Below the pieces are notes generated by a model, which did not search any database, was not told the origin of the DNA, and saw only the letters and a program-made list of their open reading frames with translations. The translations under genes and the position numbers were made by a program. From contig NZ_JADQBZ010000010.1 of the NCBI RefSeq assembly GCF_016278365.1, positions 1 through 64,000 of the forward strand: DNA of 64,000 nucleotides, given 5' to 3'. The stretch comes from Methanolobus sp. (GTDB lineage: Archaea; Halobacteriota; Methanosarcinia; Methanosarcinales; Methanosarcinaceae). Shown here piece by piece: positions 24,254 to 55,461 of the stretch (position 1 is the first letter of the stretch; each line of letters starts with the position of its first letter).

Positions 24254-26968
24254 TTACCATCCGAGCAAATTACGGACTCGTGCTGAGCCATGGTTTATGA
24301 GATATTTCCTTATCTCATCTGCTGCAAACAGTAGCAATGCAAATGGCACTGCCAGCAGTACATATTCCAGTGGAATAGGTGCAGTATTGAATATCGTGTT
24401 TGCAAAAGGATAGAAGATTATGAAGGCCAGTATCAACAGTTCACTGGCTATACCAATGAGTACCATCCTGTTGCTGAAAATCCCCTTTGTGAAAACCGAC
24501 TGTCTACGAGTCCTTGATGTGAACACGTTTGCTATCTGACATATGATCACTGCGGCAAAAAAAGCCGTTATGGCCTGCCGGTAAAGGGGGTCTGCAACAT
24601 CAAGCTGTTGTCCCCAGCTCCAGCCTCCATCTGTCAGCACTGCAAAGTAGCAGACAAAGCCCGCAGCCGCTTCTATCGGACCTTTAAGCCCGTAGGATGT
24701 CAGTAACACCTGAGGTGTGAGAAGTTTCTCTTTGCCTGAGCGGGGTGGACGTTTCATGATATCCCCTTCGCCTCTTTCCACGGCAAGTGCGATCGCTGGC
24801 AGTATGTCCGTACCAAGATCTATTGCGAGTATCAACTGCACGTTCATGGGCAGAGGTAGTGCGAGTAACATAAAAGCTATGAAGGGAAGTATTTGGGGGA
24901 CATTGCTCGTCAGGATATATGCAATGAACTTTTTGATATTGTCAAAGACTGTCCTTCCCTCTTCCACAGCATTGACAATAGTTGCAAAGTTATCATCAAG
25001 CAGGACCATGTCTGCAGACTCTTTCGCAACATCGGTACCGCTGCCCATGGCAACTCCCATATTTGCATTCTTGATAGCAGGGGCATCGTTAACACCGTCC
25101 CCTGTCATTGTGACTATTTCGCCCGCCGACTGGAAAGCTCTTACTATCTTTAGTTTCTGTAAAGGGGATGTCCGGGCGAATATTATACTTCTTGCCTGTA
25201 GTCTGTGGCCGAGCTCCTCCGCTGACAATAACTCAAGTTCCGGACCTGTTATCATTACCGGCTCACCTTTCTCATTGGTGAGCCCAACCATCGAGGCTAT
25301 GGACCTTGCTGTTACAGGGTGGTCCCCTGTTATCATAACAACTTTTATTCCCGCGCGGTAACATCTGTTGATCGCATCTTTTGCCTCGGGACGCGCAGGG
25401 TCCAGGGCGCCGGAGAATCCCAGAAAAATGAAGTTTTCCTGATATTCTCTCACCTCTCCGGCTTTCCTGAATGCATATGCAAGTACCCTCTCACCCCTTT
25501 TTGCCATTTTCAGGTACTCATTCTCCAGTTCCCTTTTATCCTTTTCAGTGAGCTCCTTCTCTTTTTCTTCTACCATTATTCGGTTACACATTTCGAGGAG
25601 CACCTCAGGGGCACCTTTTAGATAAGAATCCATATTCCCTTCAGGGGTCTTGCAGATAACCTGCATTCTTTTTATTTTAGAATCGAAAGGATATTCGGCT
25701 AATCTGGGATACTCGCTCTGCAGATTCTGGATATCTTTGAATCTGTCTATGTAGACGAGCAGTGAGCCTTCAGTGGGATCACCTCTGTATCCCGGCTGTT
25801 CATCCGACAGTCTTGAATTATTGCACACAACAGCAACACGTAAAAGCATTTCAGGCGGTATTTCGTCTTTTTTGGCATCCGTGTAACCGGAACCTGTATA
25901 CACTGAGTTCACAGCCATTTTGTTCTGTGTAAGTGTTCCTGTCTTGTCGGTACAGATGACCGTGGTCGAACCCAGGGTCTCTACTGATTCAAGCTGCTTT
26001 ATCAGGGCATTCCTTTTAGCCATCCTTTTGGAGGCCAGGCTCAGGGCAAGCGTCACTGTAGGTAAAAGTCCTTCGGGAACGTTAGCAACGATAATACCGA
26101 TGGCAAATATAAGGCTGGCAAGAAAAGTATCCTGGATAAAAAAACCAAGTATGAAGAATACTATTCCCAGAAAGATAGCAATTGAGGATATTATCTTGAC
26201 AAAACGGTCCAGTTCTTTACGTATGGGAGTCTGTAGTGATGTCGTCTCTTCTGTAAGCAGGGACAGTTTTCCTATCTGTGTATCAGAACCCGTACTAAAA
26301 ATGACGGCTTCCCCGTTGCCTGTCTGCACAAGGGTACTGGAGAATACCATGTTCCTGCACTCCAGCATGTCATCATGTGTACATTCAAGGGATCTTAACT
26401 GGGGTTCAGCTTCCCCGGTTATCGGTGAATTGTCAACTTTCAGGCTGTTCTGGAGGATAAGCCTGCCATCGGCCGGTACCTTATCACCCTCTTCCAGGTA
26501 AACGATATCGCCTACTACTATCTCAGAGGCAGGAAGTTCTACTATGTTTCCATCACGCCGTATCCTGGCAGTTGGCGGCATGAGATTCTGGAAACTTTCC
26601 ATTATCTTTTCGGCCTGGTATTCCTGTATGAACGTGAAGGTTGCGTTAAGTATGACAACTCCGAGCAGGGCGATAGCAATGAATATGTTGCCCTGTCCCG
26701 GGTCCAGGTATTCAGCAGTGAATGATAGTGCAGAACCAAAAAGCAACAGAATAGCAAAAAAGTTCCCGTATTGTTTGAAGTACTTTCTCAGCAGGCTTTC
26801 TTTCTTCTTTTTCTCAAGTACGTTAGCGCCACATCTCTCTTTTCGCCGCAGTGCCTCTTCCGACGAGAGCCCTTCAGCTCTTGTATTAAGCCTTTCAAGT
26901 AACTCTTTAGATCCGATAGTATGCTCGTCACCTATAGAGGTGCACTGAAAGTTCTCCTTTTTTGCCAC
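24254..26968 (-). CDS. P-type cation ATPase, Na,K-ATPase-like (P2C)
   Basis: A 904-aa membrane pump. The phosphorylation site CTDKTGTLTQNK has Asp341; TGEAEP is the actuator loop and MTGDGVNDAPA the hinge motif. Subtype clues: helix 4 reads VANVPEGLLPTVT and the helix 5-6 region reads YILTSNVPQILPF with IDLGTDILPAIALA and DIMKRPPR. These match Na,K-ATPase alpha subunits more closely than SERCA or PMA pumps. It probably exports Na+ (perhaps exchanging K+ or H+). GTG start with GGGGAGCA upstream. It precedes the glycogen run by 93 nt. Confidence 0.87.
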   Translation of the reverse strand: MAKKENFQCTSIGDEHTIGSKELLERLNTRAEGLSSEEALRRKERCGANVLEKKKKESLLRKYFKQYGNFFAILLLFGSALSFTAEYLDPGQGNIFIAIALLGVVILNATFTFIQEYQAEKIMESFQNLMPPTARIRRDGNIVELPASEIVVGDIVYLEEGDKVPADGRLILQNSLKVDNSPITGEAEPQLRSLECTHDDMLECRNMVFSSTLVQTGNGEAVIFSTGSDTQIGKLSLLTEETTSLQTPIRKELDRFVKIISSIAIFLGIVFFILGFFIQDTFLASLIFAIGIIVANVPEGLLPTVTLALSLASKRMAKRNALIKQLESVETLGSTTVICTDKTGTLTQNKMAVNSVYTGSGYTDAKKDEIPPEMLLRVAVVCNNSRLSDEQPGYRGDPTEGSLLVYIDRFKDIQNLQSEYPRLAEYPFDSKIKRMQVICKTPEGNMDSYLKGAPEVLLEMCNRIMVEEKEKELTEKDKRELENEYLKMAKRGERVLAYAFRKAGEVREYQENFIFLGFSGALDPARPEAKDAINRCYRAGIKVVMITGDHPVTARSIASMVGLTNEKGEPVMITGPELELLSAEELGHRLQARSIIFARTSPLQKLKIVRAFQSAGEIVTMTGDGVNDAPAIKNANMGVAMGSGTDVAKESADMVLLDDNFATIVNAVEEGRTVFDNIKKFIAYILTSNVPQILPFIAFMLLALPLPMNVQLILAIDLGTDILPAIALAVERGEGDIMKRPPRSGKEKLLTPQVLLTSYGLKGPIEAAAGFVCYFAVLTDGGWSWGQQLDVADPLYRQAITAFFAAVIICQIANVFTSRTRRQSVFTKGIFSNRMVLIGIASELLILAFIIFYPFANTIFNTAPIPLEYVLLAVPFALLLFAADEIRKYLINHGSARVRNLLGW

Positions 26969-27683: not shown

Positions 27684-27941
27684 TGTGATTACTCCATACG
27701 TTTTTAAAAGACATTCTTACTATACATATCGTTTGTGGTCTGGAATAATTCATTTGTGGGAGTATTCAGATTCATTATTCAGTATTTAAATTACTTATCA
27801 TAATTAACTACATTTATTCTTTATTTTAGTTACTTAAAAAAGAAGTGCTGAAGTTCCAACGGCGTTATAATAAATGGCTTTGTATGAATATAGTATGTCT
27901 GGTCCTATTCAGTAGCCATGCATAATTCACCAAGGTTTAGG
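27684..27941. other. Intergenic region upstream of ncRNA copy 1
   Basis: AT-rich DNA with no convincing ORF, ending at the TATA box of the ncRNA. The segment 27861-27910 shows no paired element that I can support. Confidence 0.3.
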
Positions 27942-27949
27942 TTATATAA
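27942..27949 (+). promoter_or_regulatory. TATA box of ncRNA copy 1
   Basis: TTATATAA lies ~22 nt before the predicted RNA start at 27968, the normal archaeal spacing. The second RNA copy has TTAAATAA at the same distance, and the DNA between box and start is also similar. Confidence 0.6.
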
Positions 27950-27967
27950 AAACAGATCCTAGTATAT

Positions 27968-28090
27968 GTTGCGGGCAGTGGGGTGCTCGCAAATGCGGGA
28001 GTGGATTAATTGAGAGATGTTGGGGAACATCTCGGATTCGTAAGGAGAGAGGCGCCTTAAAGCGTGGTGGTTTCCAGGCGCCTCATCTTA
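27968..28090 (+). ncRNA. Structured ncRNA, copy 1 (three hairpins)
   Basis: About 123 nt with three consecutive stems. Stem 1 pairs 27969-27977 with 27984-27992 (9 bp, one G-U). Stem 2 pairs 28014-28021 with 28026-28033 (8 bp, GGGG loop). Stem 3 pairs 28049-28056 with 28077-28084 (GAGGCGCC/GGCGCCTC, 20-nt loop with GUGGUGGU). No ORF of note. A homologue lies on the minus strand at 54122-54247; ~50 nt around stems 2-3 are nearly identical, and stem 2 differs by A-U versus G-U, so pairing is kept. I cannot assign it to a known family. Confidence 0.75.
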
Positions 28091-28234
28091 TCTTGAATTG
28101 TACTGTTTTACCTTCAAAAGTGAATACTACTATAAAAGTGAATCGAATTCTTCGTCACATTTGCCTGAGAAGGGCATATTCCCAATGATTATCTTTCCTT
28201 TTATCCGTTTCAGGTACTTTTCTCTGAACGACAT

Positions 28235-29781: not shown

Positions 29782-30651
29782 CTATTCTGAGATCAGTCCG
29801 CTATGAACTCTGTGCCAGATGTCCTGAACAGTTCCTGCAAAAGAATCATCTTTATATTCAATGACTGTTTTACCTTCCAGCATCGCTTTAGTGGGAATCT
29901 CGCTTAGTGGGAGTTTCCCTACAACATTGACATCTTTTTTCCTGCAATATTCTTCAATATATGCTGTCTTTTCTTTATTGATGTCATATCTATTGATGCA
30001 TACAACCGTCTTTATCCTGAAATGGGCAGCGACCTCAATTACTCTTTCAAGGTCATGTATCGCTGAGACACTTGGTTCAGTGACGATGAAAACAAGGTCT
30101 GCGCCGGAGATGGAAGCTATCACGGAGCAGCCGATTCCCGGGGGTCCATCTATAATGATCAGGTCGGTATTATGCAGTGCAGCCATCTCTGTCGCGTTTT
30201 TCCGCACCATTGAGACCAATTTACCTCCGGTCTCTTCTCCGATCCCTAAACGTGCATGAACGAAAGGACCGAACCGGGTCATGGACCTGTATATCTCCCC
30301 TGATTTATGTTCCTTCATTACGATCGCCTCTTGCGTACAGACAAGCGCACAAACTCCACAGCCTTCGCAGGCATGTGCATCGATGACAAAGTTTTCAGTG
30401 ATGGCACCAAATCTGCATCCTTTTCTGCATAATCCACAAACAGAACATCTATTCTGATCGATCGAAGCAACTTTCATGCCATAGAAATCCAGCTTGCTGG
30501 TCATTACAGGATGCAGTAGCAGGTGAAGGTTCGCTGCATCCACATCACAATCTGCTATAATGGCGTTACCTGCAAGAGAAGCAAAAGCTGCTGTGAGGGT
30601 GGTTTTACCTGTGCCGCCCTTTCCACTGATAACAGTTATTTGTTTTATCAT
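29782..30651 (-). CDS. MinD-superfamily ATPase with two ferredoxin-like 4Fe-4S motifs (B)
   Basis: A 289-aa P-loop protein. The deviant Walker A is GKGGTGKTT (about 10-18). An inserted ferredoxin module follows with CSVCGLCRKGC (about 74-84) and CEGCGVCALVC (about 104-114), then the switch IIDGPPGIGC. This MRP/MinD-ferredoxin type travels with NifX/NifB-like proteins and is inferred to handle Fe-S or metal-cofactor carriers. It begins 1 nt after the sister gene's stop, so the pair is surely co-transcribed. Confidence 0.87.
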   Translation of the reverse strand: MIKQITVISGKGGTGKTTLTAAFASLAGNAIIADCDVDAANLHLLLHPVMTSKLDFYGMKVASIDQNRCSVCGLCRKGCRFGAITENFVIDAHACEGCGVCALVCTQEAIVMKEHKSGEIYRSMTRFGPFVHARLGIGEETGGKLVSMVRKNATEMAALHNTDLIIIDGPPGIGCSVIASISGADLVFIVTEPSVSAIHDLERVIEVAAHFRIKTVVCINRYDINKEKTAYIEEYCRKKDVNVVGKLPLSEIPTKAMLEGKTVIEYKDDSFAGTVQDIWHRVHSGLISE

Positions 30652-30652
30652 C

Positions 30653-31498
30653 TCAAAACCTGCCTGTCAGTTCCTGCAGCTGCCTGAATGTATCTTGGAA
30701 CCTATCTTTCCAGTGAGGCATTCGAAGCACAAAAGGAGTACCCTCAGAGTATAATTGAGCTATCCTTATATCGTAGGGTATCTTCATAAGCACTGGAATG
30801 CTGTTCTCAGAACAGTAGTCCTCCACTCCATCATTGCCGGTGCCATACCTGTTGATAATCACTCCATGTGGTAATTGCAGATCTTTTACAAGGTCTACAG
30901 CAAGCATCAGATCGTGCAATCCAAAGGGAGTCGGTTCTGTGACAAGTATGCAGTAGTCTGCCCCTGTTATAGAAGAGATGACCGGACAAGAAGTACCCGG
31001 GGGTGAATCTATGATCACTGTTCTGCTATTATCAATGTGACCTTTCAGGGTACGTATAATGGGCGAAGCCATCGGTTCACCGATATTCAATACTCCCTGA
31101 TATAGTTCTATTCCATGGGTATGAGAAGCTGATCTTTCAATGGAACCAATCACCTGGATCGTTTCGGAGATTGCACCTTTCGTGCATGCAATGGAACATG
31201 CGCCGCAGCCGTGGCATAGTTTGGGAAAGAGAATGACACCTGTTAATAATACGGCAAGGGCATTGAAGCGACATGCTTCTGCACATTTGCCGCATGAAGT
31301 GCACTTATCTTTAGAAATCGCAGGTACCTGTATCCCTACATCCTCTACTTTTTGAAGTGGGTGACCAAGGAACAGGTTGCAGTTTGGTTCCTCTACATCG
31401 CAGTCAAGGAGCTGGACGTTTTCCAGGGACAGTGCAAGGTTCACGGAGACAGTAGTCTTGCCGGTTCCGCCTTTCCCACTTGCTATTGCTATCCTCAT
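30653..31498 (-). CDS. MinD-superfamily ATPase with two ferredoxin-like 4Fe-4S motifs (A)
   Basis: A 281-aa paralogue of the following gene, with the same layout: GKGGTGKTT at about 8-16, ferredoxin Cys sets CTSCGKCAEAC and CHGCGACSIAC (about 65-105), and IIDSPPGTSC. Paired paralogues suggest a heterodimeric ATPase. The upstream neighbours (two NifX-like proteins, 46 nt away) suggest metallocluster delivery, but the target is unknown; no nif structural genes are in the window. Confidence 0.87.
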   Translation of the reverse strand: MRIAIASGKGGTGKTTVSVNLALSLENVQLLDCDVEEPNCNLFLGHPLQKVEDVGIQVPAISKDKCTSCGKCAEACRFNALAVLLTGVILFPKLCHGCGACSIACTKGAISETIQVIGSIERSASHTHGIELYQGVLNIGEPMASPIIRTLKGHIDNSRTVIIDSPPGTSCPVISSITGADYCILVTEPTPFGLHDLMLAVDLVKDLQLPHGVIINRYGTGNDGVEDYCSENSIPVLMKIPYDIRIAQLYSEGTPFVLRMPHWKDRFQDTFRQLQELTGRF

Positions 31499-31544
31499 GG
31501 AGCCTCAGCTACTTGCACGAATAAGTATGAAGGGTCAGATCGGT

Positions 31545-31967
31545 TCAGTGATGGTGATGGTGATGGTGATGGTGGTGGTCGTGGTCGTGGTCGTGGTCGT
31601 GATGATCGTGGTTGTCGTGTGAACTGCAGGCATTGTCCTGATTTGCTTTTTCCAGCTTTCCTTCTTTCCACGCATTCAGAGCATCCTGGATAGTTCCCTG
31701 TGCTCCTACAAATACTTCTATTCCGTACTCATCGAACATTGCAACAGCTTTTCTACCCAGTCCACCACAAAGCATTATATTCACAGCGTTCCGGGACATC
31801 AGTTCAGGAGGCAAACCTACTCCTCCATTGTGTTCACTGGTGTTGGGTAGTATTGAAGTTTCCCCGGTCTGCGTATCATAGACAATGTAGTTTAAAACTT
31901 TCCCGAAATGCTGTCCTACCTGGTCTTCCAGGCCGCTTTTACCCATAGATGGTATACTGATCTTCAT
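31545..31967 (-). CDS. NifX/NifB-type protein (PF02579-like) with poly-His tail
   Basis: A 140-aa protein. The start MKISIPSMGKSG is preferred over an upstream ATG because AAAGGTGA precedes it and the overlap with the upstream gene disappears. Residues 1-105 are the dinitrogenase iron-molybdenum-cofactor fold (LEDQVGQHFGKVLNYIVYD, GGVGLPPELMSRNAVNIMLCGGLGRKA). The last ~30 residues are His/Asp-rich, ending in ten His, encoded by a repeated GTGATG-type tract at 31545-31612. The tail probably binds Zn, Ni or Co. Confidence 0.85.
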   Translation of the reverse strand: MKISIPSMGKSGLEDQVGQHFGKVLNYIVYDTQTGETSILPNTSEHNGGVGLPPELMSRNAVNIMLCGGLGRKAVAMFDEYGIEVFVGAQGTIQDALNAWKEGKLEKANQDNACSSHDNHDHHDHDHDHDHHHHHHHHHH

Positions 31968-31977
31968 ATTTTCACCT

Positions 31978-32301
31978 TTAACTATCATTATTTGCAAGGA
32001 ATGCCTGAACAGCTTCCATAGCTTTCATTTCAGGGAGTTTCACTATCTTTATGCCCGCAGCTTCCATAACTGACATGGAGTTTGGGCCTGGATTACCGCA
32101 AATAAGTACATCGGCTCCCCTGCCTGCAATATACTGCGCGGCCTGAACACCTGCACCTTGGGATGCAGTAGCATACGGATTATCGGCAAATTCAGTCTGC
32201 AGGCTATCCGTATCGATGAACATAAAATACATGCATCGTCCTAGATGCGGGTCAGTTCCTGCTTCAGGACCCTTGTCCTTTGTGGTAACGCATATCTTCA
32301 T
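31978..32301 (-). CDS. NifX/NifB-type protein (PF02579-like)
   Basis: A 107-aa protein. The start MKICVTTKDKGPEAGTDPHLGRCMYFMFID is family-typical; an upstream in-frame start adds only MLAYRHVPKKVSK and is rejected. The motif GAGVQAAQYIAGRGADVLICGNPGPNSM is the conserved dinitrogenase-cofactor-binding core. It leads a four-gene minus-strand operon with its poly-His paralogue (10-nt gap) and two MinD-type ATPases. Cytoplasmic; precise ligand unknown. Confidence 0.85.
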   Translation of the reverse strand: MKICVTTKDKGPEAGTDPHLGRCMYFMFIDTDSLQTEFADNPYATASQGAGVQAAQYIAGRGADVLICGNPGPNSMSVMEAAGIKIVKLPEMKAMEAVQAFLANNDS

Positions 32302-50970: not shown

Positions 50971-50990
50971 AGAGTAAGTTATTTACTTAC
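50971..50990 (-). terminator. Stem overlapping the stop of PEF-CTERM gene 1
   Basis: AGAGTAAGT and ACTTACTCT form a perfect 9-bp stem with a 5-nt loop, including the TAA stop codon, followed on the minus strand by a T-rich stretch (CATCTTTTTCC). The second PEF-CTERM gene has the same element at 54934-54952. Confidence 0.55.
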
Positions 50991-51496
50991 TCTTCCTTGC
51001 GGCGCTGCATGAAGAATGCAAGACCGAGGATCGCTGCTACCGGGAGCGCAATGGTTGGGAACTCAGGGATCTCGAAGTTCCTTGCTGCTGAGCCTACATC
51101 AAGAGTGTTGGTGTCTTCTCCTGCAGTGACGGTTACTCTCCACTTTCCTGTTGCAGGTGCATCTTCGCTGAGACTGATTGAAATTACGCCTACATCAGTG
51201 TATGGGTCTTCAATTCCTGGTTCAAAGTTTGCCTTTGAAATGACAACTGTCATATCCGATGGATCTGCTCCAGTTCCTGGAAGTGCCTGTACATTGTATG
51301 AATAAGGCATTACCTGGTTAGGTGCAGCGAAGTTTGCTCCATGGTAACTGAATATCTGTGTCTGTCCTGGCTGGAGGACAATGGGGTTTGTAACAGCTGC
51401 AGTTCCTGCAGCATTCCATATATTTGCATCATATGCGTATGCTGTTCCTGCCATAGCAATTATTGCTATGAATAGGAGTGATATTATTTTCTTCAT
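50987..51496 (-). CDS. PEF-CTERM surface protein 1
   Basis: A 169-aa exported protein. The signal peptide (about 1-21) is MKKIISLLFIAIIAMAGTAYA. The body is a single beta-sandwich-like domain (YDANIWNAAG, QIFSYHGANF, PYTDVGVISISL). The C-terminus is a sorting tail: PEFPTIALPVAAILGLAFFM then QRRKEE, that is PEF motif, helix and basic end. Archaeosortase C is thought to cleave such tails and attach the protein to lipid; the archaeosortase gene is 9 kb away. It pairs with the paralogue at 54949. Confidence 0.87.
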   Translation of the reverse strand: MKKIISLLFIAIIAMAGTAYAYDANIWNAAGTAAVTNPIVLQPGQTQIFSYHGANFAAPNQVMPYSYNVQALPGTGADPSDMTVVISKANFEPGIEDPYTDVGVISISLSEDAPATGKWRVTVTAGEDTNTLDVGSAARNFEIPEFPTIALPVAAILGLAFFMQRRKEE

Positions 51497-52186: not shown

Positions 52187-52375
52187 GTTCGTCGCCGCAA
52201 AGATTTTGCATCGGTAATTACAATTTAAGTACCGGTTTCTTATTCTTTTTGAGCTTCGTAAACCTTTAATCTACACAGCTAATTCTCGCCTAAAATACTA
52301 TAAATAGAATTAGCCATACAAACATTACTATGTAGTTATTCTATAGGTCGTATGTTCTCACAGGAAGTAGAGACA

Positions 52376-53161
52376 ATGAAGAAGCCACTGCTTGATGTTC
52401 TTTTCATGTCTGAGAAAAGGAAGAATGCTCTTTTACTACTGAACGATGGACCTCAGGAAATGGAGTATCTTCTTAAATCTCTTGGCACCACGAGACAAGC
52501 ATTACTTCCACAGATAAGAGTACTTGAAGAGCATCACCTTGTAACCAGCGATAAAGACATATATCAATTAACAACACTTGGAAAGCTCATAACGAAGGAC
52601 ATGATCTCTCTTTTAGATGTGGTTGATTTTCTTGATGTCAATATTGAGTATTGGGGTACTCATAAGCTCGATTTTATGCCACAACATCTCTTTGAGAGAA
52701 TGGATGAACTGAAGGCATGCACCGTTATTGAAATTCCTTTGCATGAAATATTTGAGGAAAATAAGCAGTTCACTGAAGGAGCAAAGAAGTCAAAAGCCGT
52801 ATACACTGTCACATCATATTCATTTCCTAATTTTGAGAGAATACTTTCTGAGTTAATTGCAAATAACGTTTCCATATCAATAATTATCACAGAAGAGCTC
52901 TTCAGGAAACTGTTTAATGAACATTTTGATAACACGCAGGCATTGATTAAAAGTCCAAACATTAATTTGTATATGTACAGTGGCAGCTTTGATTTCTTAT
53001 CTTTTTCAATCAATGACTATAACATGCTACTGCAATTGTTAACAAAAGACGGTAATCCTGATAATAAGGATGTCATTTGTTCAAGTAAAAGTGCGCTTCA
53101 ATGGGGAAAAGAGCTCTTTGAGTACTACTTGAAAGATTCAAAACTAATAACTGAACTTTGA
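52376..53161 (+). CDS. FilR1/DUF1724-type transcriptional regulator (2)
   Basis: A 261-aa paralogue of the regulator at 35786. The winged helix (MKKPLLDVLFMSEKRKNALLLLNDGPQEMEYLL, TTRQALLPQIRVLEEHHLV) is followed by the middle domain with YWGTHKLDFMPQHLFERM and CSSKSALQWGKELFEYYLK. The start at 52376 equalises all three paralogues; the upstream ATG at 52352 adds eight residues. Tandem with the next paralogue (90-nt gap), which suggests recent duplication. The operator-like palindrome upstream hints at autoregulation. Confidence 0.85.
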   Translation: MKKPLLDVLFMSEKRKNALLLLNDGPQEMEYLLKSLGTTRQALLPQIRVLEEHHLVTSDKDIYQLTTLGKLITKDMISLLDVVDFLDVNIEYWGTHKLDFMPQHLFERMDELKACTVIEIPLHEIFEENKQFTEGAKKSKAVYTVTSYSFPNFERILSELIANNVSISIIITEELFRKLFNEHFDNTQALIKSPNINLYMYSGSFDFLSFSINDYNMLLQLLTKDGNPDNKDVICSSKSALQWGKELFEYYLKDSKLITEL

Positions 53162-53251
53162 CACTAGAATTTTAAACCCCTAAAGTTTTGTGCTTGTTTC
53201 GGCTTACATTAAATATCATTGTCAACATATGAAAATTAGGGAGTGAGCATA

Positions 53252-54037
53252 TTGAAGAAACCCCTGATTGATGTAATATTTGCCTCTGAGAAAAGAAAAG
53301 GCGTGCTCCTCTTATTACAGAATGGCCCCAGACAGATGGAGGATATTCTCAAATCTCTTGATACAACACGACAATCTTTACTTCCTCAGATAAGGATATT
53401 GGAGGAACATTACCTGATATCCCATTTTGATGACTCCTATGGTTTAACAAAGATTGGTAAACTAGTGGCTGAGAGAATACCACCTCTTGTAGAGACAAGT
53501 GAAACACTTGACATTGATATTGATTACTGGGGGACTAGTGATTTAAACTTCATTCCTTCACATCTTGCAGATACAATATCCATGCTTAAAAGATGCAGTA
53601 TCTTAACCCCCAAACTTAGTGACTCATACAATGAAAATTTCCAATTTCATGACGCTTCTAAAATATCCCATTCTGTTTATGTGATGACGGAATTCCTATT
53701 TCCAAATTATATGGAACTGTTTAATGACCTGGTTTCTAATGATGTTAACATTCATTTCATAATCTCCTCCAGTTTATATAATAAATTGAAGTCCCATGGC
53801 AATAGCGAATTAAACCAAATTATCCAACACAAAAGAGCAAACTTCTACACTTATGTCGGAAAAGTCGGTTTTTTGTCATTCGGATTAAATGATTATTACA
53901 TAATCATGCGCTTACTAAGAACAGACAGTAAAAGCAATGTTAGTTTTATTTGGTGCAATAGTTCAAATGCACTTGAGTGGGGAAAAGCACTATTTGAATA
54001 TTACCTGAAAGACTCAACACCCATAACAGGACTGTAA
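53252..54037 (+). CDS. FilR1/DUF1724-type transcriptional regulator (3)
   Basis: A 261-aa paralogue. The TTG start at 53252 gives MKKPLIDVIFASEKRKG, matching the other copies, with GGAGTG 7-12 nt upstream; GTG 53243 overlaps that ribosome binding site. Winged helix (TTRQSLLPQIRILEEHYLI), middle domain with YWGTSDLNFIPSHLA, and CNSSNALEWGKALFEYYLK at the end. Effector unknown. It converges on ncRNA copy 2, 85 nt away. Confidence 0.85.
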   Translation: MKKPLIDVIFASEKRKGVLLLLQNGPRQMEDILKSLDTTRQSLLPQIRILEEHYLISHFDDSYGLTKIGKLVAERIPPLVETSETLDIDIDYWGTSDLNFIPSHLADTISMLKRCSILTPKLSDSYNENFQFHDASKISHSVYVMTEFLFPNYMELFNDLVSNDVNIHFIISSSLYNKLKSHGNSELNQIIQHKRANFYTYVGKVGFLSFGLNDYYIIMRLLRTDSKSNVSFIWCNSSNALEWGKALFEYYLKDSTPITGL

Positions 54038-54121
54038 TCAAAATATTCCTCGTATGAAAACATTTTCGATAACGAGACTATTTTATACTAAAAAATCCTT
54101 TTTGGTCTAGTTGTGAATAGA

Positions 54122-54265: not shown

Positions 54266-54273
54266 TTATTTAA
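54266..54273 (-). promoter_or_regulatory. TATA box of ncRNA copy 2
   Basis: TTAAATAA on the minus strand, ~20 nt before the predicted start at 54247, matching the geometry of copy 1. Confidence 0.55.
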
Positions 54274-54948
54274 CCAAACCTGATTTTAATATCGGATGGA
54301 GCTTTATTTTTGTAAGGGCTCTTTTTTTCTACACGAAGCTTATTTTGGTAAAGGGGTCTATATTTCAATCAGATGCTATTGTTCGATACCTTCGTAATTT
54401 CAAGTCCCATATCGAAGGTGGTTTAGAAAATAATCTTAGGGACTCTAGGGCCAATTATATTTGACATCTCAGGAATGCCTTATTGGCTTGTGGGAATCTA
54501 TTGAAATCAACATCATCTGGTTATTTTCTTTCAAACCGATCAACGAGGGGAACTATTTTCCAAGTGAAACTTGCTCATGACGACGGCTTCGACGGAGAGA
54601 GTACATAGCCATTGGGTAACTCTACAGAAAACATTGCGTAATTAATGCAGACCATTACACAATCACTGAATAGTTCTGAACTAGAATCCCGTGTAAATGT
54701 GTTAGAACAGAAGTTAGAAAAGATAACAGAAACTTTAGAAAAGTTAAGTGGGCCCGAGGAGATTCAAGTTTCTGACCCTCGTTGTGTAAGGGCTAAGCAC
54801 ACTCGAAGTTGATGGAACAGAATGTAGGACAAATATTTTAGGTGGTATGATATTGTTCATCTGATATAATGAGTCCAAGAAGTAATACTGAGGAATGTCA
54901 AAAGTAGTTGCTTTCTAAAAAGAAAAAAAGGGGGAGTAAGTTATTTCC
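54274..54948. other. Gene-poor region with probable coding remnants
   Basis: The plus strand carries fragments that read like protein (IVRYLRNFKSHIEGGLENN near 54380-54440; SGYFLSNRS and KLAHDDGFDGEST near 54515-54600) interrupted by stops, then a 55-codon coiled-coil frame. This looks like decayed coding DNA; no parent family was identified. Confidence 0.35.
54645..54812 (+). CDS. Small coiled-coil frame, possibly a gene remnant
   Basis: A 55-aa frame starting MQTITQSLNSSELESRVNVL and continuing EQKLEKITETLEKLSGPEEI to a basic tail. Leu/Val/Ile recur with heptad spacing, predicting a coiled coil. No good ribosome binding site. It may be the C-terminal part of a broken gene rather than a functional small protein. 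Confidence 0.25.
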   Translation: MQTITQSLNSSELESRVNVLEQKLEKITETLEKLSGPEEIQVSDPRCVRAKHTRS

Positions 54949-55461
54949 TTACTCTTCCTTGCGGCGCTGCATGAAGAATGCAAGACCGAGGATCGCTGCT
55001 ACCGGGAGTGCAATGGTTGGGAACTCAGGGATCTCTGTGTTAACATACCTTGATGCAGAGTCGACCTCAGATTCTATTGTGACCGGGCCTGCACCGATGC
55101 TAACCCTGTAGATAGTGCCTGCAGGTGCATTAGCAGCTATACTGATAGTGATGGCGCCGACATCCGTATATGTACTTGCTTCAGGAACTGTTACATTCTC
55201 AGGAGTTGTGATCACGATGTCAGATTCAGATCCGCCTCCGCTGACCACTGATACCTGTTGGGTGTAATTCAAAACCATTCCGTACTCTACACTGCTAATG
55301 CTCTGCATCCTGTAACTAAGGACAACTGTGTCTCCAGGGCTGAGTTTGAGATCTCCGATGGGACCCTCGCCTGCAGCATCCCATACATCCGGAGTATATG
55401 CTGAAGCAGTTCCGATCATGGCGATAAGGGCCATAAGAGCTACTATAATTAATCTTTTCAT
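54949..55461 (-). CDS. PEF-CTERM surface protein 2
   Basis: A 170-aa exported paralogue of the protein at 50987. The signal peptide is MKRLIIVALMALIAMIGTASA. The shared opening Y.P/AD.WDAAG and the DVGAITISI-like strand show homology, but the bodies differ strongly. The tail from EIPEFPTIAL to QRRKEE is identical at the protein level and almost identical in DNA. Presumed archaeosortase substrate. Monocistronic with its own terminator. Confidence 0.87.
   Translation of the reverse strand: MKRLIIVALMALIAMIGTASAYTPDVWDAAGEGPIGDLKLSPGDTVVLSYRMQSISSVEYGMVLNYTQQVSVVSGGGSESDIVITTPENVTVPEASTYTDVGAITISIAANAPAGTIYRVSIGAGPVTIESEVDSASRYVNTEIPEFPTIALPVAAILGLAFFMQRRKEE

Follow-up and report, generated by a model that had tools for sequence, protein, structure and literature searches.

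A multi-copy, three-hairpin RNA family with its own promoter and a genomic link to FilR1-type regulators in Methanolobus

The two related sequences in the window, the 64,000-nt stretch of a Methanolobus genome (2.87 Mb) that was analysed, are members of a gene family of non-coding RNAs (ncRNAs) of about 125 nt, each with three hairpins, and with promoters of their own. The family was structured, present in many copies in a part of the genus and linked to genes for FilR1-type winged-helix regulators. Its most likely role would be that of a high-dosage, cold-inducible RNA acting in trans, the loops of which bind one shared, putative partner. We hold with moderate confidence that such a high-dosage RNA with one shared partner is linked to regulation by FilR1 subfamily B. 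For the whole explanation, in which a multi-copy structured RNA acts in trans on one partner, gains its dosage from copy number and is tied to subfamily B, the probability was put at about 0.5. The trans action, the partner and the control by FilR1 are what we infer from conservation and linkage.

The features of both copies are listed in Table 1. Stem 1 of copy 1 comprised 9 bp (27969-27977 with 27984-27992), stem 2 comprised 8 bp (28014-28021 with 28026-28033), and stem 3 comprised 9 bp (28049-28057 with 28076-28084) together with an inner stem of 4 bp. The stems of copy 2 were laid out in the same way, except that stem 1 contained a G.A mismatch and the outer stem 3 comprised 8 bp. The two copies could be aligned over the full transcript length, and the folding energy of each was better than that of 200/200 dinucleotide shuffles (z of -4.2 and -3.9 for copies 1 and 2, respectively). 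The end-to-end alignment and the fold scores agreed with the original prediction, which had described a three-hairpin element in two copies on opposite strands; its A-U versus G-U difference in stem 2 and its stem-1 sequences that differ and still pair were also seen. No match to Rfam 15 was found within the window; with a relaxed threshold the best score in the copy 1 region was 13.7 bits against a cut-off of 50, below the gathering threshold.

Table 1. Positions of the ncRNA copies, their promoters and the adjacent regulator genes in the window (CM, covariance model).
Feature	Positions	Strand	Basis
Copy 1 promoter, upstream box and BRE/TATA (ATTCACCAAGGTTTAGGTTATATA)	27925-27948	+	Promoter alignment; genome-wide pattern match, 1 mismatch
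Copy 1 TATA box	27942-27949	+	
Copy 1 ncRNA (model positions 1-129)	27966-28091	+	CM match 137.9 bits, E 4e-34
Copy 1 predicted 5' end	near 27968-27972	+	
Copy 1 hairpin 1, type-1 sequence, loop GUGGGG 27978-27983	27969-27992	+	Fold and covariation
Copy 1 hairpin 2, loop GGGG 28022-28025	28014-28033	+	Fold and covariation
Copy 1 hairpin 3 with inner stem, loop GUGGUG 28064-28069	28049-28084	+	Fold and covariation
Copy 1 downstream TATAAAA element	28132-28138	+	
Second FilR1-type regulator, in tandem	52352-53161	+	PF08350 E 4.9e-28; subfamily B
FilR1-type winged-helix regulator, convergent with copy 2	53243-54037	+	PF08350 E 6.5e-20, HVO_A0261_N E 7.1e-10; subfamily B in tree
Copy 2 downstream TATAAAA element	54081-54087	-	
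Copy 2 ncRNA, three hairpins	54248-54119	-	CM match 135.1 bits, E 2.3e-33; copy in model seed
Copy 2 TATA box	54273-54266	-	
Copy 2 promoter (ATTAAAATCAGGTTTGGTTAAATA)	54267-54290	-	Pattern match, 1 mismatch; promoter alignment

The covariance model was built from a seed of 21 copies, in which copy 2 was included and copy 1 was left out. What had been taken for a two-copy family proved to have about 16 copies in the window genome (15 BLASTN matches and 16 covariance-model matches) and up to 32 matches in another genome. Carriers made up 11 of the 27 Methanolobus genomes, that is, the window genome and 26 further genomes of the genus. The P-type ATPase encoded in the window had its closest relatives in Methanolobus and Methanosarcinaceae records. 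The copy number was roughly 10-30 per genome in one Methanolobus group, with 24 matches in the genome G026, for example at 214413, 324494-, 602256-, 760271-, 1537469-, 1863140, 2445667, 2840067-, 2934051 and 3071988. A covariance-model search had been proposed as a check of the original prediction; carried out in substance over 112 Methanosarcinaceae genomes, it favoured a real RNA family and gave no credible match outside Methanolobus. The matches outside Methanolobus came from G093 and G095: two weak full-length ones in another genus were rejected for lying inside coding sequence, and a third (L326) was partial and weak, with 18.5 bits. The carriers are mostly one Methanolobus clade: in a P-ATPase tree, the eight carriers having the gene, G015 aside, formed one clade with a support of 100/100. 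The carrier G015 lay outside this main clade and possessed two weak ncRNA copies, and the carriers G021 and G023 had no orthologous P-ATPase gene and were therefore absent from the tree.

The covariation supports a common structure of the family. In an alignment of 73 distinct rows, which was fitted to the structure and hence leans towards pairing, two-sided changes occurred in 22 of the 29 base pairs, a number reached in none of 500 shuffles. In the same alignment 95.8% of the cells assigned to pairs were paired, as compared with 32-48% when the partner was slid, and the two-sided cells numbered 180 against 48.4 +- 5.7 in shuffles. The seed alignment, made with MAFFT from sequence alone, showed 97.7% pairing, and its two-sided cells numbered 9, as compared with 1.9 +- 1.2. 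Covariation was found in all pairs of stem 1 (8/8), and two-sided changes in 6/8 pairs of stem 2 and 7/9 pairs of the outer stem 3. Conservation of the three G-rich loops equalled or exceeded that of the stems: the identities of loop 1 (GUGGGG), loop 2 (GGGG) and loop 3 (GUGGUG) were 0.90, 0.97 and 0.97, and those of stems 1, 2 and 3 were 0.74, 0.89 and 0.90, respectively. Over all columns, the unpaired positions (1.21 bits) were not more conserved than the paired ones (1.38 bits); this was due to variation in the tail and in linker 1, of all segments the least conserved (0.68). That the loops were held while the stems varied by compensation suggests contact of the loops with a common partner.

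At the locus of copy 1, orthologues were present in the genomes G026, G006 and G023 with an RNA identity of 82-85%. The upstream flank beyond the promoter was only 46-63% identical, one gap-aligned segment excepted, and the downstream flank, which takes in a neighbouring coding gene, was more conserved. Many copies, tandem pairs, degenerate copies and patchy loci are what a mobile or selfish repeat of the MITE or REP kind, folding by chance, would also show, but such an origin is highly improbable. The shared sequence spans the promoter box, the RNA and the downstream element, with boundaries that coincide with these; all helices carry compensatory changes; and syntenic copies are kept between species in these three genomes while the non-coding flanks diverge. 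Furthermore, the family had no match in phage and plasmid collections, and eight 17-mer matches in viral contigs were rejected as chance by the covariance model.

Several copies had irregular forms. The type of the first hairpin of copy 1 differed from that of the orthologues (L050, L022 and L021) in G026, G006 and G023, which suggests that this hairpin was exchanged between paralogues. In tandem pairs, the second copy had no promoter and a shorter first hairpin. Degenerate ncRNA remnants stood behind the same promoter box at L233 (G000:C7 near 8456), which adjoins a FilR1 gene, and at L239 (G026 near 2928000). In addition, a truncated copy (L243, G026:887435-887535) was continued by sequence complementary to a second 5' hairpin with promoter-like sequence, which gives the impression of a head-to-head junction of two copies.

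The family has a dedicated conserved promoter. In 46 aligned promoters, ATTAA, five variable bases, GnT and GGTTAWATA followed each other at fixed spacing, with GGTT starting mostly 26-27 nt ahead of the model start. The pattern had 21 and 18 matches in two genomes, as compared with 1 and 2 for the reversed pattern, and the matches mostly preceded ncRNA copies. The promoters of the two window copies matched it, with TATA boxes about 20-25 nt ahead of the predicted start, in agreement with the TATA box originally noted before each copy. Downstream, TATAAA followed 22 of the 32 copies within 110 nt, usually at +28 to +46, as compared with 4.2 on average and 11 at most in shuffles. The TATAAAA element after ncRNA copies, those of L035-L061 included, occurred with or without a FilR1 gene; it may belong to the RNA, serve as a second promoter or, on the opposite strand, form a T-rich terminator. 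As for a T-run terminator, runs of four T were found in 24/32 copies against 17.3 +- 2.6 in shuffles, a weak excess, and runs of five T showed no excess. Moreover, leaders with a similar promoter and GUGGGG hairpins were observed at L231, L237 and L242 ahead of a short ORF that is rich in Cys and zinc-ribbon-like (KQLKECPECKARLHD...), and they possibly belong to the same regulon as the ncRNA.

Copy 2 and the nearer of two tandem FilR1 genes face each other 3' to 3' with a gap of 81 nt. Such proximity was frequent: 10/17 ncRNA loci in G026 (expected 3.4%; p 3e-11) and 9/15 in G000 (expected 3.9%; p 8e-10) had a FilR1 gene (PF08350) at a distance of no more than 1.5 kb, with p values that treat the loci as independent, though some are recent duplicates. 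At several loci the convergent gap was about 73-78 nt as measured from the ORFs and about 79-82 nt by a second estimate. Recurrent gaps of about 73-82 nt would be expected if the element were only a 3' antisense or terminator structure in cis for convergent FilR1 genes. This explanation has very little to recommend it, since the RNA has its own conserved promoter, about 40% of the loci, copy 1 among them, are not near a FilR1 gene, other orientations occur, and the FilR1 stop codon lies beyond the end of the RNA model. Across the 27 genomes, the copy numbers of ncRNA and FilR1 were correlated (Pearson 0.91, Spearman 0.73; 0.84 within carriers), a correlation that is in part phylogenetic because the carriers are mostly one clade.

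The FilR1 genes adjacent to the RNA were of one kind. All 20 adjacent FilR1s of G000 and G026 fell in subfamily B, and none of the 11 others did (Fisher p 0.0016). Subfamily B had its own recognition helix, TTRQALLPQIRILEEHY, which was nearly invariant in members near the RNA, far from it and in non-carriers, while the rest of the protein varied. Since the subfamily was present also in genomes without the RNA, in lower number, the RNA and FilR1-B are separable. A carrier-only FilR1 clade, seen in a first tree, was dropped when fuller sampling put non-carrier members in it. The ncRNA promoter motif was not found upstream of FilR1 genes, bar one weak site at L041_5. The LtrK/LtrR thermosensor was rejected as a relative of FilR1, LtrR being of different architecture.

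Other features of the neighbourhoods were also observed. In the window, the FilR1 pair is flanked by ORFs (50987-51496 and 54949-55461) for two small secreted proteins, which are paralogues and carry PEF-CTERM-like C-termini (EIPEFPTIALPVAAILGLAFFMQRRKEE). At 29782-31997, two ORFs for MinD-like ATPases contained Cys-rich inserts and were accompanied by a protein the C-terminus of which is rich in His, a gene set that is ordinary for iron-molybdenum or iron-sulfur maturation clusters. In addition, ORFs of one shared cluster lay 160-230 nt downstream of tandem ncRNA copies at L039 (5438-6001) and L049 (5390-6019), and the L039 member contained a TIR_2 domain.

The expression of the family was approached through the literature. 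Li et al. (2015, PMC5378194) mapped the transcripts of M. psychrophilus R15 at 8 and 18 C and reported 195 intergenic sRNAs; nine of these showed high conservation and induction in the cold and had a 'cold box' upstream. The genome G026 is probably the R15 genome, with matching coordinates: its position 26,651 lies inside a PAS-HisKA-REC kinase, as the paper states for R15. Two Hsp20 genes of G026 agree in position with genes of R15, the one near 863 kb with Mpsy_0869 and the one near 77 kb, only weakly supported and below the Pfam cut-off, with Mpsy_0075; a third Hsp20 match, in addition to these two, lay at 2.10 Mb. The nine cold-box sRNAs are probably members of the present family, an identity drawn from this correspondence, and the upstream ATTAA/GKTT box is probably their 'cold box'. 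Transcription and cold induction of the ncRNA in R15 are thus probable by way of this identification.

The proposed mechanism would be as follows. Each gene, from its own promoter with the upstream ATTAA/GKTT box, would yield an RNA of roughly 125-160 nt that presents its G-rich loops on three hairpins. Since the loops stay much the same from copy to copy and between species while the stems drift by compensation, a single partner would most likely be addressed in trans by all copies, the number of which would set the dosage. An expanded FilR1 subfamily with one DNA-binding helix would most plausibly sense the signals and work through the promoter box that the genes have in common. The original prediction of a duplicated regulatory RNA with perhaps redundant copies is favoured by loops common to all copies; for its suggestion of opposite roles nothing speaks.

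We think that a protein or the ribosome (anti-Shine-Dalgarno) is likelier as the partner than a set of copy-specific mRNAs. Base-pairing sibling sRNAs, like M. mazei sRNA154 or the bacterial Qrr RNAs, would use the G-rich loops or linkers to control many mRNAs; the loops are both exposed and well conserved, archaeal sRNAs that act in this way are known (PMC5867862), and the Shine-Dalgarno (SD)-like segments could pair with C-rich sequences. This possibility, which the original prediction had raised for the loops, is a tentative one: the translation-initiation and 3' regions of FilR1 mRNAs showed no excess complementarity to the ncRNA, and loop complements were not enriched near gene starts in the 141 kb around the loci. 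Alternatively, the RNA might be an SD mimic associated with the ribosome, which occupies the 3' end of 16S rRNA and lowers translation in the cold. The predicted pairing energies with the 16S 3' end, GGAUCACCUCCU, were -10.3 kcal/mol for linker 1 and -9.4 kcal/mol for loop 3, near that of one SD-containing control (-10.7 kcal/mol) and far from the -22.4 kcal/mol of a full complement. Pairing would be energetically possible and unspecific. The multi-copy dosage and the cold induction reported for R15 would fit a mimic, which is nevertheless unlikely: nothing in the sequence demands it, any C-rich stretch will pair with G-rich RNA, linker 1 is itself the least conserved segment, and loop 2 pairs poorly.

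Within the preferred reading, a trans-acting RNA tied to FilR1-B, a more specific circuit can be drawn, in which many paralogous sensors of the FilR1 subfamily, sharing one helix, would act on one promoter box and so on 10-30 copies of one trans-acting RNA. This circuit is doubtful; if true, many signals would meet in the dose of one RNA, in a lineage-specific, archaeal arrangement.

To our knowledge, archaeal sRNAs with known function are few. The family stands outside Rfam; its covariation is strong, its copies are unusually numerous, and both its promoter and its genomic link to one regulator family are specific. The bacterial sponge RNAs of the CsrB/RsmZ type and the Qrr siblings occur in several copies, with repeated G-rich loop motifs and a dosage logic; by description, the present family resembles them in all three respects, with loops GGGG and GUGGUG as compared with the A(N)GGA consensus of the CsrB/RsmZ type. 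We know of no CsrA/RsmE partner for it. Among archaeal RNAs, sRNA154, sRNA162 and sRNA41 of Methanosarcina mazei are known trans regulators (PMC5867862). Like the present family, they are intergenic sRNAs of Methanosarcinales with stem-loops, and they are set apart from it by their descriptions, which are not those of large multi-copy families. The FilR1 of Methanosaeta (PMC3991700) and other PF08350 regulators belong to the same protein family as the neighbours of the RNA; the literature searched on FilR1-type regulators gave no link to an RNA. Unlike those regulators, the RNA-linked subfamily B is expanded and has its own recognition helix. The R15 cold-box sRNAs share with the present family the genus, several conserved sRNAs and a conserved element upstream of the promoter; the paper text counts nine of them, without structure, covariation, FilR1 linkage or distribution. 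The present results therefore offer a structural and genomic frame for these cold-induced sRNAs, within which the question of the partner can be tested with one tagged RNA.
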